Source: Clostridiales bacterium
GTDB lineage: Bacteria; Bacillota; Clostridia; Christensenellales; Borkfalkiaceae
Length of the DNA stretch: 37,418 bases
Assembly: GCA_015055735.1 (NCBI GenBank)
Contig: SVHP01000011.1
Location: 1 to 37,418, forward strand
Direction of reading: 5' to 3'
Shown one piece after another: positions 16,852-23,223 of this stretch. Within the stretch, counting starts at the first letter, position 1; every line of letters starts with the position of its first letter. Made by a program: the position numbers and the translations under genes. The notes under the pieces are model-generated. The model was given only the letters and a program-made list of their open reading frames with translations, had not been told where the DNA came from and did not search any database.

Positions 16852-17286
16852 TTAATCTTTAGTTTTCTTTTTTACAATTGCTTCTGTTATATCGGTTAAA
16901 ACCAACTCGCCGTTTTGATTATAAGCTGAAATACTAAGTTCTACTATGCCGTTTTTTGCATTTCTTTCGGTTAATTTTGTCACTACGGCTTTTGAAGTTA
17001 AAATATCATCAGCAAACACCGGCTTAAACCACTCTATTTTTGTGGATTTTCCTGCAAGAAGTTCTTCGCCAAAGATATCAACCTTTAGATATTCTGCCCA
17101 AACTGCCATAAAGGACATTACACCAGGCGCAATGAGTTTCTTAAACGGCGTTTTACTCGCATACTCTTCGTCGGTATGTAGTGGAATATTGTCGTAAGAA
17201 TAAGCAAAATCCAGCATTTTATCCTTTTCAATTTTTGCAGGGGCAATTTCTATGGTTACCCCAAGTTTTATATCGTCAAAATACAT
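16852..17286 (-). CDS. MaoC-like (R)-specific enoyl-CoA hydratase
   Basis: A single hot-dog-fold hydratase of 144 residues. The MaoC/PhaJ active-site Asp and His are seen as Asp32 and His37 in YSYDNIPLHTDEEYA, followed by the conserved Gly after FKKLIAPG. It hydrates trans-2-enoyl-CoA to (R)-3-hydroxyacyl-CoA, or the ACP equivalent, in the cytoplasm. Length and domain content are normal for the single-domain type. It begins 13 bases after the ACT-MBL gene with AAGGGAA as ribosome site, so the two form one transcription unit. With the acyl-CoA synthetase further upstream it suggests acyl-CoA metabolism. The acyl chain length cannot be inferred. Confidence 0.9.
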   Translation of the reverse strand: MYFDDIKLGVTIEIAPAKIEKDKMLDFAYSYDNIPLHTDEEYASKTPFKKLIAPGVMSFMAVWAEYLKVDIFGEELLAGKSTKIEWFKPVFADDILTSKAVVTKLTERNAKNGIVELSISAYNQNGELVLTDITEAIVKKKTKD

Positions 17287-17299
17287 AAAATTCCCTTCT

Positions 17300-18739
17300 C
17301 TACTTTACTGTTTGTGGACAATATACTTTCTTTTGTCCATGTCCACCGAATATACTCCATTCCCCAACCCCCAATCTTTGCAAAAACGCATAACGCTCTT
17401 TTTGACACAGTTTAGGATCGGTATCGACCGAAGTCATAAGTATTGGCGCATATTGATTGTATTCGGCTTGCTTTTTAGTTAAATCGGTAAGGTTTATAAA
17501 CACGTCGCCCGTAAAAGCAACCTTATGTTCAAAATCTATCAACAGTATTTCGCCCGACAAATGTCCACCTTTACCTTCGTAAACTTCAAAATTTAGTTCA
17601 CCTACACTATAAAAGCCTATTTGTTCTATCGGAGCCGTCAACGTTGATTTATTCCACAACGGACAAAGCCTAGCCTTTTCAACTTTTTCATACTCGGTTA
17701 AAGTTTTACAAATGTTAACGTAAGGCAAGTGCAAATTATTACTTTCTCTAAAACCAAGTTTATTATCCACTTCAGCGCTTAAACATTCGGCACTTCTTTG
17801 ACTTAATATAATCTCGTCAAACTCGTTTACAAGTCCACAATGGTCAACGTCGGCGTGAGTTATAATAAGTCTTTCGGTCTTGCTCTTAAAGTCGGGAATT
17901 AACGAGTTTATTATTTTTAGCATTTGGTCTTTATAGCAAGCGTATCCCGAATCAACGAATATCCTTTGACCGTCGCTTTCAACAATGGCAGTATTGCTAC
18001 CACAATCAGGCTCTATTAGTATAATTCTAGTTTTTTCAGTTATAAAATGCTCGGTTATTCTCGGCTTAAAGTTTTCGCCCTTACACTCTTGTAAAAGTTC
18101 GGCAAACTTGCTTATGCTATCAAAAGTTTTGTATGGCGAAAGTCCTTGTTCGTCAAGCGTTTGCATTGCTAAATTTACGTTAACTAGCAGTTCTTCTTTT
18201 TTCTTTTGGGTTAAGTTCATCATCTTAACCAAACCATCAACGTAGGTATTATAAAAAATACTATTATCGTAAACCTTTTCGGTATCGTTATAATTTATAA
18301 TTTCAACTTGGCAAAGTTTTTCAGCTTGGGTTAAAAATTCGTTTAATCCGTTTAAGTCTTTGACGTTTAATCCCATTTTAAACTGTTGATATCCACTTCC
18401 ATTTTCTTGCGAACTTATGTATGAGATATTAAGGTTAAATTTACTTATTAACTCTAAAACGTTAGTTACACTACCAGGTTTATCTTCCAAACGGAATTGT
18501 ATCAAAATTATTTTACTACTTTCTTCCCCGTTTGAAAGATACCCGATTTCTCGTAGCTTTACGTTAGCCTTTTCTAAATTCTCTTCTTGCCCGTCCACTT
18601 CGATAAACAGCGTATGCGAATCCACTGCCTTGTTATAACTTACCCTAGTAATGTTAATTCCTAGTTCGGAAAAACACTTGCTCGCCTTTAAGAAAGCGCC
18701 TATATGGTTGGGCATTTTAGTCACGTAAGTCTTTTTCAT
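17300..18739 (-). CDS. Tandem ACT domains fused to a metallo-beta-lactamase-fold hydrolase
   Basis: A 479-residue fusion. Residues 1-70 and 77-150 are two ACT domains: the second opens ILIQFRLEDKPGSVTNVLELISK, and the first, YVTKMPNHIGAFLKASKCFSE, is more divergent. A helical linker (150-235) leads to a metallo-beta-lactamase fold with HADVDH at 295-300 (variant of HxHxDH, Asp at the second ligand), the GGHLSGE His near 393 and TGDVF near 412. Hydrolysis of a thioester, phosphoester or similar bond is possible; the substrate is unknown. ACT pairs suggest allosteric control by an amino acid. No Shine-Dalgarno sequence precedes the ATG. A possible promoter ending about 13 bases upstream would make the mRNA almost leaderless. 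It is co-transcribed with maoC. Confidence 0.85.
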   Translation of the reverse strand: MKKTYVTKMPNHIGAFLKASKCFSELGINITRVSYNKAVDSHTLFIEVDGQEENLEKANVKLREIGYLSNGEESSKIILIQFRLEDKPGSVTNVLELISKFNLNISYISSQENGSGYQQFKMGLNVKDLNGLNEFLTQAEKLCQVEIINYNDTEKVYDNSIFYNTYVDGLVKMMNLTQKKKEELLVNVNLAMQTLDEQGLSPYKTFDSISKFAELLQECKGENFKPRITEHFITEKTRIILIEPDCGSNTAIVESDGQRIFVDSGYACYKDQMLKIINSLIPDFKSKTERLIITHADVDHCGLVNEFDEIILSQRSAECLSAEVDNKLGFRESNNLHLPYVNICKTLTEYEKVEKARLCPLWNKSTLTAPIEQIGFYSVGELNFEVYEGKGGHLSGEILLIDFEHKVAFTGDVFINLTDLTKKQAEYNQYAPILMTSVDTDPKLCQKERYAFLQRLGVGEWSIFGGHGQKKVYCPQTVK

Positions 18740-18752
18740 AATAGATTAAAGT

Positions 18753-18781
18753 TTTATATAATTTGTTTTCGTAATAAACAA
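18753..18781 (-). promoter_or_regulatory. Possible promoter of the ACT-MBL gene
   Basis: On the minus strand: TTGTTT (18781-18776), 17-base spacer, TATAAA (18758-18753). The -35 box is weak. The start point would fall about seven bases before the ATG at 18739. Confidence 0.35.
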
Positions 18782-18786
18782 GTTAA

Positions 18787-18886
18787 CAAGGCTCGTGCAA
18801 ACGAGCAAACTTGATAGACCTTTTGGTCATCAAGGTTGCGAGTTTTGCACAGAAACGATGTATAACGAAGATTACAATTTGTTTCT
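18787..18886. repeat. Hairpin repeat, copy A
   Basis: A 100-base unit running from CAAGGCTCG to GTTTCT that is about 96% identical to copy B 128 bases further on (differences only in the GAGC(AA/GG)CTT, ATG(T/C)ATA and ATTA(C/T)AAT spots). The centre is a long imperfect hairpin with GACC-TTTT-GGTC at its tip and GTGCAAA/TTTTGCAC at its base. Confidence 0.85.
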
Positions 18887-18914
18887 GTAAGAAACGAATT
18901 AGAAACGAATTAGG

Positions 18915-19014
18915 CAAGGCTCGTGCAAACGAGCAGGCTTGATAGACCTTTTGGTCATCAAGGTTGCGAGTTTTGCACAGAAACGATGCATAACGAAGAT
19001 TATAATTTGTTTCT
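18915..19014. repeat. Hairpin repeat, copy B (overlaps the end of the acyl-CoA synthetase gene)
   Basis: Second copy of the 100-base unit, same orientation as copy A. Its right end covers the last four codons and the stop codon of the acyl-CoA synthetase, which therefore ends inside the repeat. The related but diverged unit at 21388-21479 lies on the other side of that gene in the same orientation. Confidence 0.85.
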
Positions 19015-21267
19015 TTGGATTTTACCACTTATAGTCTTTGGCAATTCATCACGGAAAACAACCACTCTTGGATATTTGTAAGGAGCAGTATGGTCTTTAA
19101 CGTATTTTTGAATTTCCTTTTTTAATTCTTCGCTAGGTTCAGTACCTTTAGTTAAAACTATACTTGCTTTAACAACTTGACCACGAACTTCGTCAGGAAC
19201 GGCTGAAACACCACATTCTAATACGTAAGGTAATTCCATGATAACCGATTCGATTTCAAAAGGTCCGATTCTATAACCACTAGATTTGATAACGTCGTCC
19301 ACACGTCCAACGTACCAGAAATATCCGTCTTCGTCACGCCAAGCAGTATCGCCTGTGTGATAAAGTCCATCGTGCCAAGCGTCTTGAGTTTTTTCACTGT
19401 CACGATAATATTCTCTAAATAAACCACAAGGAACTTCTTTGTCCGTATGAATTACGATTTCGCCAACTTCACCTGCTGGAACGCTATTACCGTCGCTATC
19501 AACAACGTCAACGTCGTATTGTGGATTTGCTTTACCCATAGCGCCGATCTTTGGCGTAGTTCCGTAAAGGTTTGCTATCGCAAGCGTAGTTTCGGTTTGA
19601 CCAAAGCCTTCCATGATTTCTAAGCCTGTAGCTTCCTTAAACTTGTTGAAAACTTCAGGATTTAATGCTTCGCCTGCCGTAGTCATGTGGTGGATAGACG
19701 AAAGGTCAAATTTAGAAAGGTCTCCACGAATTAACATACGAAGCATAGTTGGTGGAGCGCAGAAAGTAGTTATGTTATATTCAGCAAACATAGGCAATAT
19801 ATCGTTTTCGTCAAATCTATCGAAATCGTAAACGAAAACTGCGCCTTCGCAAAGCCATTGTCCGTATAATTTACCCCAAAGCGATTTACCCCAACCTGTG
19901 TCTGAAATAGTTAAGTGAAGTCCGTCACGTTCGCAACAATGCCAATATTTTGCAGTCACGAAATGTCCTAAAGCGTAAGTGTGCTTATGCGCTGCCATTT
20001 TTGGATTGCCGGTAGTTCCCGAAGTAAAGAACATAAGAGCTGCTTCATCGCCTTGCGAACAATCTTTTGGACGGTCAAATTTACCTGAGAATAAAGCGTA
20101 TTCTTTATCGAAATCACGCCAGCCTTCTTTGTTACCCCCAACCATTAAGAGTCTTTCTACTTGTGGGCATTTTTCAGCAGCACTTTGAGCGTACTCATAA
20201 GTATCGCCGTCAGCAGTACAAACGATTGCCTTTACCCCTGCCGAATTATATCTATATTCAAAATCGTGTTCTTTAAGTTGGTTGGTTGCTGGAATTGCGA
20301 TTGCGCCTAGTTTATGAAGGGCAACCATACAGAACCAGAATTGATAATGACGTTTAAGAACGAGCATTACCTTATCCCCACGCTTAATTCCTAAAGAAGT
20401 GAAGTAGTTTGCCACTTGGTTAGATGCACGCTTAATATCTTTAAATGTAAAACGGCGTTCAAACTTGTTTTTGTCAAGGTGAAGCATTGCAAGTTTTTCA
20501 GGATATTTATCGGCAATTTTATCAACGATATCAAAGCCGAAATTGAAAGTGTCAGTGTTTTTGAATTTTATCGATTGCAATCTTCCGTCAGCGTCCTCTT
20601 TTGTTTCAACGAACTTCTCGCAAACGAGTTTTTCGCTCGTTTTAGCGTTCATAACGCTCTTTCTAACTACAGTTTCGGTTGAATTATCGCCCGACATTAC
20701 TACTGCAACGAAAGTACAGTCTTTGCCGTCAACGGCAATCATACCGTGTGGCATAGAAGAATTATAGTAAATGCTGTCCCCTTCGCCTAAAACTTCAACG
20801 TGATCGCCTACTTGAACTTTTAGTTTACCACTTAGCACTAGGTCAAATTCTTGACCACTGTGCGTAGTTAGATGAATAGGTTTATTTTGTTGTGATGCAG
20901 AATATTCGTAAGTTACGTAATAAGGTTCTGCAAGCTTATCTTTAAATTTAGGCGCAAGGTTTGCTATATCAATGCCGTCTTCTTTAGCCGTTTCTTGACC
21001 TTGACCCTTTCTGGTAATGGTATAGGTAGAAAGTTTTGCCGAACTACCTTCAAGTAGATCTATCATTTCAACTCCAAACGCTAAAGCGCATTTATGAATA
21101 AAAGAAAAAGGAATGTCTTCTTTTCCGCTTTCATACGATATATATTGTTTTTCTGTTACGTTTGTTTTTTCAGTCATTTCATTAACGGAAAAGCCCATAA
21201 TTTCGCGCAACTCCTTAATTCTTGTTGCGACGTCCGATAACTGATTTAAAGTGTTGTTTGTGTTCAT
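19000..21267 (-). CDS. XRE-HTH/cupin-fused acyl-CoA synthetase (AMP-binding)
   Basis: A 755-residue, three-part fusion. Residues ~16-73 are an XRE-type helix-turn-helix (IKELREIMGFSVNEMTEKTN...YISYESGKE). Residues ~110-190 are a cupin (HLTTHSGQEFDLVLSGKLKVQVGD..., with PHG later). From ~240 onward there is a full ANL-family adenylating enzyme. Its P-loop reads MFFTSGTTGNPKMAAH, the A5 box GFGQTET, the A7 box YHTGDTAW, and the A10 lysine lies in PKTISGKIQR. It should activate a carboxylic acid through an acyl-AMP to acyl-CoA; the acid is unknown. The protein ends two residues after GKIQRN because the stop lies inside a repeat, about 5-15 residues earlier than usual. The ribosome site AAGGAGG is ideal. 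DNA binding would have to come from a fused enzyme, which is odd; the same arrangement occurs in other Clostridia. Confidence 0.9.
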   Translation of the reverse strand: MNTNNTLNQLSDVATRIKELREIMGFSVNEMTEKTNVTEKQYISYESGKEDIPFSFIHKCALAFGVEMIDLLEGSSAKLSTYTITRKGQGQETAKEDGIDIANLAPKFKDKLAEPYYVTYEYSASQQNKPIHLTTHSGQEFDLVLSGKLKVQVGDHVEVLGEGDSIYYNSSMPHGMIAVDGKDCTFVAVVMSGDNSTETVVRKSVMNAKTSEKLVCEKFVETKEDADGRLQSIKFKNTDTFNFGFDIVDKIADKYPEKLAMLHLDKNKFERRFTFKDIKRASNQVANYFTSLGIKRGDKVMLVLKRHYQFWFCMVALHKLGAIAIPATNQLKEHDFEYRYNSAGVKAIVCTADGDTYEYAQSAAEKCPQVERLLMVGGNKEGWRDFDKEYALFSGKFDRPKDCSQGDEAALMFFTSGTTGNPKMAAHKHTYALGHFVTAKYWHCCERDGLHLTISDTGWGKSLWGKLYGQWLCEGAVFVYDFDRFDENDILPMFAEYNITTFCAPPTMLRMLIRGDLSKFDLSSIHHMTTAGEALNPEVFNKFKEATGLEIMEGFGQTETTLAIANLYGTTPKIGAMGKANPQYDVDVVDSDGNSVPAGEVGEIVIHTDKEVPCGLFREYYRDSEKTQDAWHDGLYHTGDTAWRDEDGYFWYVGRVDDVIKSSGYRIGPFEIESVIMELPYVLECGVSAVPDEVRGQVVKASIVLTKGTEPSEELKKEIQKYVKDHTAPYKYPRVVVFRDELPKTISGKIQRNKL

Positions 21268-21328: not shown

Positions 21329-21479
21329 TTAACGCAGTATTGCGAAGTTTATAATGCCAAATTTTTGTTTGTTAGAAACAAGCAAGACAAGGCTCGCGAC
21401 GCATTTTGGATGAAATAAACCTTGTTGGTTATTGAAGTCAAAATGCAAAGCAGTTAACGCAGTATTGCGAAGTTTATAA
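21329..21479. repeat. Hairpin repeat, copy C with a duplicated 26-base end
   Basis: An identical 26-base segment (TTAACGCAGTATTGCGAAGT plus TTATAA) occurs at 21329-21354 and 21454-21479, 125 bases apart. The second copy ends a unit (21388-21479) that begins CAAGGCTCG like copies A and B and has the same plan: a central hairpin with ACC-TTGTT-GGT at its tip and GCATTTTG/CAAAATGC at its base. Identity to A/B is roughly 60% by eye. It abuts the T-box terminator tail. Confidence 0.75.
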
Positions 21480-21480
21480 C

Positions 21481-21521
21481 AAACAAAAACCCGTCTCAAA
21501 GTTTTTTTACTTTGAGACGGG
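21481..21521 (-). terminator. T-box leader terminator
   Basis: A 13-bp perfect stem (21521-21509 with 21502-21490), six-base loop, then UUUUUGUUU on the minus strand. It is the expression platform of the T-box and can also serve as a plain terminator. Confidence 0.9.
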
Positions 21522-21768
21522 TATAATTTCTATACTCGCGGTACCACTCAAATTACGGATAATATCCGTCACTTACCGAGCTCTAACAAGCCCTTTGCCT
21601 TTACGCAGCAATACGGAAGGAATCTACTAAACAAATGTTTTTCGGTCCTTCGACTCAGGGGTGATAGGTCATTGGAAAGATCCACCGTTGCCTTGCACCA
21701 TACGGCAACTCTCTGAAGGTTTTTTCAATCCGACCGTCCTCTTCATAGTCGTTCGTGATATTAAATTT
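21522..21768 (-). promoter_or_regulatory. T-box riboswitch leader
   Basis: The minus-strand RNA has all the main T-box elements in order. These are a kink-turn pair GGA/ATGA at the base of stem I, the AGAG distal bulge, a GGTGCAAGG terminal loop, the antiterminator core GAGTGGTACCGCG (12 of 14 with the AGGGTGGNACCGCG consensus) and the terminator. The bulge reads TGGT, so it would pair with a tRNA ending ACCA (discriminator A). The most consistent specifier triplet is ATC (21681-21679), meaning isoleucine; TTC (phenylalanine) three bases downstream is an alternative. The next gene on this strand is the acyl-CoA synthetase, 220 bases beyond the terminator. Confidence 0.9.
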
Positions 21769-21774
21769 AGATTT

Positions 21775-21803
21775 ATTTTACTCTTTGAAAATTGTTTTGT
21801 CAA
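21775..21803 (-). promoter_or_regulatory. Promoter of the T-box leader
   Basis: On the minus strand: TTGACA (21803-21798), 17-base spacer, TAAAAT (21780-21775). An inverted repeat (AAATTGT/ACAATTT) overlaps the -35 box. It starts transcription at about 21768, just after the Dabb gene ends. Confidence 0.8.
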
Positions 21804-22171: not shown

Positions 22172-23223
22172 TTATTCAAGTGGCACTACTGCAAAAGCGT
22201 TTAGAGTTAGGTCGGCAAAGTTTTTCTTTTTATATTGCAAATATCCTTCTGCACCTATCATTGCGCCGTTATCAGTGCAATAACGCTTTTCTGGTAAAAC
22301 TAGTTTTATTCCATTTTCTTTAGTAGCATCGATAAGGGCTTGTCTTAAATAACCGTAGCACCAACTCCACCCGAAACGCAAATAATATGGTAACCGAAGT
22401 TTTTAGTGGCTTTTATTGCCTTTTCCACCAAAACGTCTATTGCCGAGTGTTGAAAACTGTTTGCAACGTCAGCCTTATTGATTTCAATACCTCTTTCCTT
22501 TTGGTTATGAACGTAATTTATAACGGCCGTTTTTAATCCACTGTAAGAAAAATCAAACTCGCCACCATCGTAATTTTTTAGCATTTTTGGAAGAGCGATA
22601 ATGTTTTGACCTTCTTTTGCTAATCTTTCAACGTTTGGTCCCCCTGGATAACTTAAGCCTAGAACTCTAGCGACCTTATCAAAGGCTTCGCCTACCGCAT
22701 CGTCTAAAGTCGAACCTAAAACTTCTATATTATAATAGTCTTTAACTGCAATTATTGCCGTATGCCCACCACTTGCGAGTATGGTTATAAACGGTGGTTG
22801 CAAGCTTTTGTCGGCTAGATAAGAGGCTGCGATATGCCCCCTAATATGACTTACGGGAACTAATGGTTTTTGGCAAGCGAAAGCAAGTGATTTAGCAAAC
22901 GACACACCGACTAATAACGCCCCTAACAAACCAGCGCCCTTAGTTACTGCAAACGCATCGATATCGTCAAGGGTTAAATTTGCTTTTTCTAACGCCCTTT
23001 CAGTTGCCGTTAAAATTGCAGTGGTGTGCGTTCTAGACGCTATCTCTGGAACCACCCCACCAAACTTTGCATGTTCGGTTGCCGAACTGATAATTTCGTC
23101 GGCTAGAATTTCCCTACCGTTTTTTATTATAGCAACTGCCGTTTCATCGCAAGAAGTTTCTATACCCATTATTATTGGGTTTTCTTTTATTGGTAATTTA
23201 GATATTTTTTCAAAGTACGTCAT
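22172..23223 (-). pseudogene. tsaD: tRNA N6-threonylcarbamoyladenosine transferase TsaD, interrupted by a one-base frameshift
   Basis: TsaD transfers threonylcarbamoyl to A37 of ANN-decoding tRNAs and is essential in most bacteria. The first part (23223 to about 22357) carries IASRTH, the metal-binding HIRGH (His126, His130) and ASGGHT, and runs to VSGGVGA. There the frame breaks: in the original frame it ends ATVI-stop, while the frame one base over continues without gap as GYLRQALIDATKENGIKLVLP...AVVPLE to 22172. Adding one A near 22356 (GCT-AC to GCT-AAC) restores ANGYLRQ and a normal 350-residue protein. Everything else is intact, so a sequencing or assembly error is as likely as real loss. 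The start overlaps the prfB stop (ATGA). Confidence 0.88.

Follow-up and report, generated by a model that had tools for sequence, protein, structure and literature searches.

T-box leader and acyl-CoA synthetase gene

The window, a 37,418-nucleotide stretch of DNA from a member of the Borkfalkiaceae, carries on its minus strand a T-box leader followed by a gene for a synthetase with XRE-type helix-turn-helix (HTH), cupin, and AMP-binding domains (Table 1). The Rfam covariance model of the T-box (RF00230) matches the leader over its full length (model positions 1 to 219 of 219, 21755-21510) with 87.5 bits and an E-value of 1.2e-19. Since this lies under the Rfam gathering score of 93, a default Rfam scan of the window is silent. 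The Rfam alignment shows a stem I with the specifier loop, AG-bulge, and distal-loop (GGUG) motifs, and the T-box bulge has the UGGN form. The antiterminator and the terminator share one strand and are therefore mutually exclusive. Folding of the whole leader is mildly better than that of shuffled sequences (z of -2.12, equalled by 7 of 200 shuffles). Three terminator-like sites occur in the region versus 0.5 in shuffles; the terminator hairpin, read on both strands, accounts for two of them. Promoter-like sites number three versus a shuffle mean of 2.1, a count that gives no support for a promoter, so it is the quality and place of this particular site alone that favor one. These observations confirm a real and complete T-box of the isoleucine class.

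An earlier note, made from the letters alone, had described this element as a complete T-box with promoter, stem I, antiterminator core, and terminator, and the RF00230 search that it proposed bears this out, as do the promoter-like site and the terminator. Its preferred specifier, ATC for isoleucine, is also the one given by the Rfam register and by most leaders of relatives, both of which speak against its alternative, TTC for phenylalanine. The UGGU bulge agrees with the note's assignment of a tRNA with discriminator A, and the next minus-strand gene is the XRE-cupin-acyl-CoA synthetase that it had named.

Table 1 Features of the leader, the synthetase gene, and neighboring genes in the window
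Feature	Position	Strand	Basis
Promoter-like site, TTGACA-17-TAAAAT	21775..21803	-	Match to consensus alone, at 11 of 12 positions
T-box leader (RF00230), from stem I through antiterminator	21510..21755	-	Covariance model, full length
Specifier triplet AUC (isoleucine)	21663..21665	-	Rfam alignment; relatives share register
T-box bulge UGGU, pairing with discriminator A	21543..21546	-	Sequence and Rfam alignment
Antiterminator hairpin UUUGAG ... CUCAAA	21511..21552	-	-8.9 kcal/mol; 3' strand within terminator 5' arm
Intrinsic terminator, 14 pairs, then T run	21489..21522	-	-23.1 kcal/mol
First copy of 26-nt repeat, lying between terminator and gene	21454..21479	-	Repeat search
Second copy of 26-nt repeat	21329..21354	-	Repeat search
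XRE (HTH)-cupin-acyl-CoA synthetase, clade A, 755 aa; proposed as 2-methylbutyrate--CoA ligase	19000..21267	-	Domains, solved relatives, tree; substrate predicted
Codon for Gly460 of GWGKS, the residue in agreement with the specifier	19888..19890	-	Alignment
ACT + metallo-beta-lactamase-fold protein; adjoins clade A gene in several relatives	17300..18739	-	Domain search
MaoC-like protein; after clade A units in some relatives, after clade C copy in G081	16852..17286	-	Domain search

The synthetase has AMP-binding matches over the cut-offs of both PF00501 (218.1 bits) and PF13193 (78.5 bits). Its top NCBIfam model is the 2-methylbutyrate-activating enzyme MbcS (NF047394), and because the score (446.5 bits) is below the equivalog cut-off of 850, the protein was not filed as MbcS. 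The best solved relative is 3etc (638.7 bits; runner-up, 341.9), a match that starts at residue 230 and leaves the HTH and cupin parts without counterpart in 3etc; this XRE-cupin part (230 aa) has no match among solved structures at an E-value of 0.01.

Several features surround the synthetase gene. The ACT domain of the metallo-beta-lactamase-fold protein that follows it suggests amino-acid sensing, and matches to this protein lie beside clade A synthetase genes in relatives (66% to 96% identical, some partial). The interval directly after the synthetase gene (18730-18999) was seen by eye to hold two near-copies of one stretch; a dispersed repeat was considered for these 270 nt and rejected, as they match only themselves in the assembly. 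The 17-nt core of the 26-nt repeat occurs exactly only at its two sites in the own assembly, with two further sites at two mismatches. Farther upstream, TsaD is split across two overlapping minus-strand frames (22172-23223), of which 22345-23223 covers model positions 1-229 of 264 and 22172-22381 positions 232-263; from the sequence this reads as a frameshift, real or assembly-derived.

In the own assembly (76% complete, 1.52 Mb in 67 contigs), the T-box described here ranks third among six strong ones. The strongest (124.3 bits, G000:C17:916-1145; L001, L095) faces a contig end, its target gene being absent from the assembly, and another precedes a threonyl-tRNA-synthetase-like gene. No tRNA-Ile(GAU) was found among the 30 of 31 tRNA matches scanned in this 76%-complete assembly.

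Conservation of the leader and its probable exchange

For 80 relatives of the window synthetase (64% to 94% identical), the DNA ahead of the gene was examined. An exact T-box core lies at most 1.2 kb upstream in 74 of them; one core with a single changed base (L011) and one inside a joined match (L046) bring the total to 76 of 80. The four without a core are a locus with only 273 nt of upstream DNA (L062), one with a degenerate remnant (L031), and two with another gene directly upstream (L054 and L080). The remnant of L031, before a clade A gene (upstream of 6001), is T-box-like, with promoter and hairpin and without stem I. Distances from core to gene range from 67 to 408 nt, and in a class-wide sample most full-length relatives are likewise preceded by T-boxes. 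Deletion or gene loss at the 26-nt repeats was considered as the cause of the arrangement in the window and rejected, the order of T-box and then synthetase being conserved. In one clade B leader (L067, upstream of 8595), the T-box core apparently reads CGGGACC and not UGGNACC.

The window leader itself is most similar (86.4% identity; next best in the set, 70.4%) to the leader of a third synthetase copy (L162) in the congener G081; the protein of that copy is 61% identical to the window synthetase. Compared with the leaders of 12 distinct orthologues whose proteins are more than 90% identical, it shows 60.5% to 66.5% identity (mean, 63.7%), whereas those leaders share a mean of 73.0% among themselves (range, 61.9% to 86.9%). 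The first tree had put L162 close to the root, on a long branch and with a warning of long-branch attraction; this placement was superseded by that from the class sample, which puts L162 in clade C (30 rows, support of 100), where all 29 readable genes have an isoleucine specifier and Gly at residue 460. Identity to the window leader averages 77.0% for 21 clade C rows selected by motif and 65.6% for 57 others; the latter go up to 78.0%, as the motif is missing from some rows of clade C. In G081 the MaoC gene follows the clade C copy, just as in the window it follows the clade A unit after the ACT-metallo-beta-lactamase gene. Since the leader is closer to a clade C leader than to those of its own orthologues, it was probably exchanged between two isoleucine-type synthetase units, one of clade A and one of clade C.

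Agreement between specifier codon and residue 460

Specifiers were read by parser and by eye for 155 distinct genes (168 less 13 duplicates). Complete clade A leaders carry AUC in 85 cases and GUC in two (L071 and L076); clade B leaders are valine-specific in 58 cases (52 GUA, five GUC, and one GUG), and the third copy L162 has AUC. In a tree built by a quick method, both clades have an SH-aLRT support of 99 (clade B, 58 Val and two unread; clade A, 85 Ile, two Val, and five unread). Positions were counted as discriminating when more than 85% conserved within clade A (90 rows) and within clade B (60 rows) and differing between them. Of the 16 such positions, 15 fall within the HTH-cupin part and linker, none of them beyond residue 214. 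The lone discriminator in the catalytic domain is residue 460, which is Gly in clade A (99%) and Ala in clade B (100%). It follows the Trp of the GW-G-K-S motif; 3etc shares the GWGK motif and has Gly there. In Salmonella acetyl-CoA synthetase the corresponding residue is Val310, which forms a wall of the acyl pocket.

Residue and specifier also agree in three genes outside this A/B pattern. Both clade A genes with a valine specifier (L071 and L076) have Ala460, and the third copy L162 with its isoleucine specifier has Gly; in the former two, leader and pocket appear from the sequences to have switched together. Directly behind L071 and L076 (6001) are P-loop and VOR genes, with no clade B gene in between. 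In the class-wide sample, in which 192 of 391 genomes have a synthetase match at an E-value of 1e-150, the analysis covered 80 chosen regions plus 28 additional loci, and 15 of these 108 were set aside as standalone synthetases (L268-L282). The new full-length genes with a readable specifier comprise 56 Ile/Gly and 22 Val/Ala combinations and no discordant one; 14 other full-length genes lack a readable T-box, some of them at contig ends. Overall, specifier and residue agree in 223 of 224 genes, the sole exception being an isoleucine specifier with Ala in L124 (genome G034), and the 21 genes of the 245-row set without a readable complete T-box were left uncounted.

The Fisher values for this association take no account of relatedness. 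The tree shows only two changes of the specifier and three of the residue, giving two independent joint switches, and an independent-pairs test yields two of two, a number at which significance is unreachable. As automated parsers misread some leaders, eye reading was used instead; 11 leaders were read by eye before residue 460 was known (L032, L035, L036, L055, L072, L063, L077, L079, L146, L147, and L162) and five after the residue had been listed (L208, L210, L237, L242, and L251). L083 was reassigned to clade A on the tree, and rows were dropped for 45% relatives (L164 and L165), a row identical to L137 (L191), and a duplicate (L185). The two distant XRE-cupin-synthetases L164 and L165 (genomes G014 and G031) have Leu460, no T-box core upstream, and VorB within a few kb, and perhaps act on another acid.

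Gene clusters and co-occurrence with branched-chain pathways

The own genome has a second XRE-cupin-synthetase about 33 nt behind a T-box with the valine specifier GUA. A third system lies on contig C56, where two tandem T-boxes (L093:7404-7923), the first with the leucine specifier CUC and the second largely lacking stem I in its Rfam alignment, are followed by genes for a LeuA-like protein, a fusion of acyl-CoA synthetase and TIM-barrel domain, IlvE, a P-loop protein, and VorB-A-C. IlvE (464 bits; cut-off, 307) and VorB (NF005507, 544 bits; cut-off, 399) exceed their model cut-offs, while the LeuA-like gene, VorA, and VorC fall under theirs. Both tRNA-Val(UAC) and tRNA-Leu(GAG) of this genome have discriminator A, fitting the valine and leucine T-boxes. 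The window synthetase and VOR are on separate contigs here. Within about 6 kb, 50 of the 80 loci of relatives include a VOR subunit; many of the contigs end early. A frequent order, incomplete at some loci, is LeuA-like, fused synthetase, isoleucine T-box with clade A gene, valine T-box with clade B gene, IlvE, P-loop gene, and VorB-A-C.

Contig C11 (L094:6234-13617) holds two synthetases flanking IorA and IorB, plus an aminotransferase. These synthetases have AMP-binding domains and are called PaaK-like by our own reading, and the cluster suggests the same logic for aromatic amino acids made from aryl acetates. The T-box scan of the own assembly gave no RF00230 match on C11.

To relate the synthetase to pathway content, we searched a sample of 101 genomes of the family, in which 25 genomes, spread over only six genera, were scored as carriers by a full-length XRE-cupin-synthetase of more than 1000 bits (our own threshold). 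IlvC was counted with PF01450 because PF07991 gives only weak matches in the own genome (best, 24 bits over positions 2-88 of 165). IlvC is found in none of the 25 carriers versus 40 of 76 non-carriers (Fisher 5e-7), IlvD in none versus 41 (2e-7), and VorB in 24 versus 12 (3e-13), all three values ignoring relatedness. The sole carrier without VorB (G015) is 57% complete. Of the 24 family genomes that have VorB as well as a full-length synthetase, 12 have the two within about 2.1 kb of each other. Within genus g18, G034 (79% complete) has the synthetase and VorB without IlvC and IlvD, and G018 shows the reverse. Two results are contrary to this pattern. For the 80 loci of relatives, 48 genomes were obtained, and 9 of these 48 carriers have IlvC, so that the proposed route would there be at most an addition. 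Further, all nine sampled g10 genomes and G032 (g16) combine a standalone synthetase with IlvC, VorB, and an IlvD match.

Proposed route to isoleucine and alternatives

We consider it likely that the isoleucine T-box controls a short branched-chain acyl-CoA synthetase that converts 2-methylbutyrate toward isoleucine via VOR and IlvE, with parallel arms for valine and leucine. When isoleucine is short, uncharged tRNA-Ile would pair with the AUC specifier and the UGGU bulge, the tRNA-bound leader would form the antiterminator, and the synthetase would be made. The enzyme would then activate external 2-methylbutyrate to its CoA ester, which a VOR-type 2-oxoacid:ferredoxin oxidoreductase would carboxylate to 3-methyl-2-oxopentanoate for transamination to isoleucine by IlvE. 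The paralogue behind the valine T-box would lead from isobutyrate to valine in the same way, and the leucine T-box would govern the cluster of LeuA-like, acyl-CoA synthetase, IlvE, and VOR genes. The earlier note had stated that no amino-acid gene stands behind the leader. The linkage of the synthetase to VOR, BCAT, and a valine-T-box paralogue, and the family carriers without IlvC and IlvD, argue otherwise, and the gene is best read as a putative isoleucine-biosynthesis gene of an alternative pathway. Of the two explanations offered in that note, the first, control of acyl-CoA activation by uncharged tRNA, thus appears favored.

The second explanation, that the leader lost its amino-acid gene and stands before the synthetase by chance, has some points in its favor, as the 26-nt repeats separate the terminator from the gene and the leader is unlike those of the closest orthologues. 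It nevertheless seems hardly credible given that the core occurs at the same gene in nearly all of the 80 relatives and before most full-length relatives class-wide, and that the leaders nearest in kin precede clade C XRE-cupin-synthetases with the same isoleucine specifier. In the main, the sequence comparisons refute it; what stands of the note's suspicion is that the leader is foreign to its own orthologues, a result probably of exchange. A degradative role, in which VOR oxidizes 2-oxoacids derived from amino acids and the synthetase runs in reverse or scavenges, is very improbable. VOR is reversible, and the g10 genomes combine VorB with IlvC, but a T-box switches on at amino-acid starvation, the wrong sign for a degradative gene, and IlvC and IlvD are missing in every family carrier.

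An unlikely but less remote alternative is that 2-methylbutyryl-CoA from the synthetase primes the formation of anteiso branched-chain fatty acids, with the T-box sensing the loss of isoleucine as the usual primer source, so that the goal would be the membrane. MbcS of Staphylococcus aureus serves branched-chain fatty acid synthesis according to the available part of PMC10026030, and the same enzyme would be needed for either use, so that the two may occur side by side. Against this, the linkage is to VOR and IlvE, and the family carriers lack IlvC and IlvD. The isoleucine route is accordingly preferred on linkage and gene content.

The agreement of codon and residue extends this reading. A pocket that gains one methyl as its substrate loses one methylene would fit Gly and Ala at residue 460 with C5 and C4 acids, respectively. 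With some reserve, we favor the broader view that specifier and acyl-pocket residue change together (isoleucine, Gly460, and the C5 acid 2-methylbutyrate; valine, Ala460, and the C4 acid isobutyrate, with a pocket one methyl smaller). The isoleucine, valine, and leucine T-boxes would then label an entire alternative pathway by which gut Clostridia make branched-chain amino acids from volatile fatty acids. They would show its direction and what each ligase acts on, and leaders would be swapped between paralogues as modules with the amino acid kept.

Relation to known systems and significance

The formation of isoleucine from 2-methylbutyrate by reductive carboxylation is classic in rumen bacteria, where branched volatile fatty acids from neighbors are a long-known feeding link. 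The same reductive carboxylation is described as the probable isoleucine route of Methanobrevibacter ruminantium in the accessible text of PMC2812497; what differs here is that the proposed pathway genes bear isoleucine, valine, and leucine T-boxes. Isoleucine T-boxes before ileS are the most widespread kind, as given in a portion of PMC2494555, and with the RF00230 isoleucine class the window shares the full-length model, AUC, UGGU, and the antiterminator/terminator pair and differs in its target, an acyl-CoA synthetase. A leucine T-box before leuA, and not before a synthetase, appears in the part of PMC2700814 consulted.

Among enzymes, the closest counterpart is Macs of Methanosarcina acetivorans (3etc), which prefers 2-methylbutyrate according to an excerpt of PMC10455477. 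The likeness spans the whole catalytic part, including the GWGK motif; the window protein adds the HTH and cupin parts, and its substrate is a prediction. MbcS, the top NCBIfam model, activates 2-methylbutyrate and isobutyrate, isovalerate being a poor substrate (available part of PMC10026030). In S. aureus it feeds fatty acids, and one enzyme handles two acids, as opposed to the two T-box-marked paralogues here.

Each of the three elements, T-box, pathway, and enzyme family, is known; we found neither their combination nor the link between codon and residue in print. By title, the literature searched, with TBDB, supplements, and subscription papers lying outside the search, includes no case of a T-box with an acyl-CoA synthetase, ferredoxin oxidoreductase, isobutyrate, or reductive carboxylation, and no codon-residue link. 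Both "acyl-CoA" and "ferredoxin" are absent from the main texts, as far as these were available, of PMC2494555, PMC7583486, PMC3766115, and PMC7778990.

If the proposal is true, T-box specifiers would give substrate and direction for genes annotated as "acyl-CoA synthetase" or "2-oxoacid oxidoreductase". Gut Clostridia without IlvC and IlvD would pass as branched-chain amino-acid auxotrophs. On the present reading, carriers would instead use the branched volatile fatty acids of their neighbors, and the genes, the regulators, and a one-residue test of this idea are offered here.
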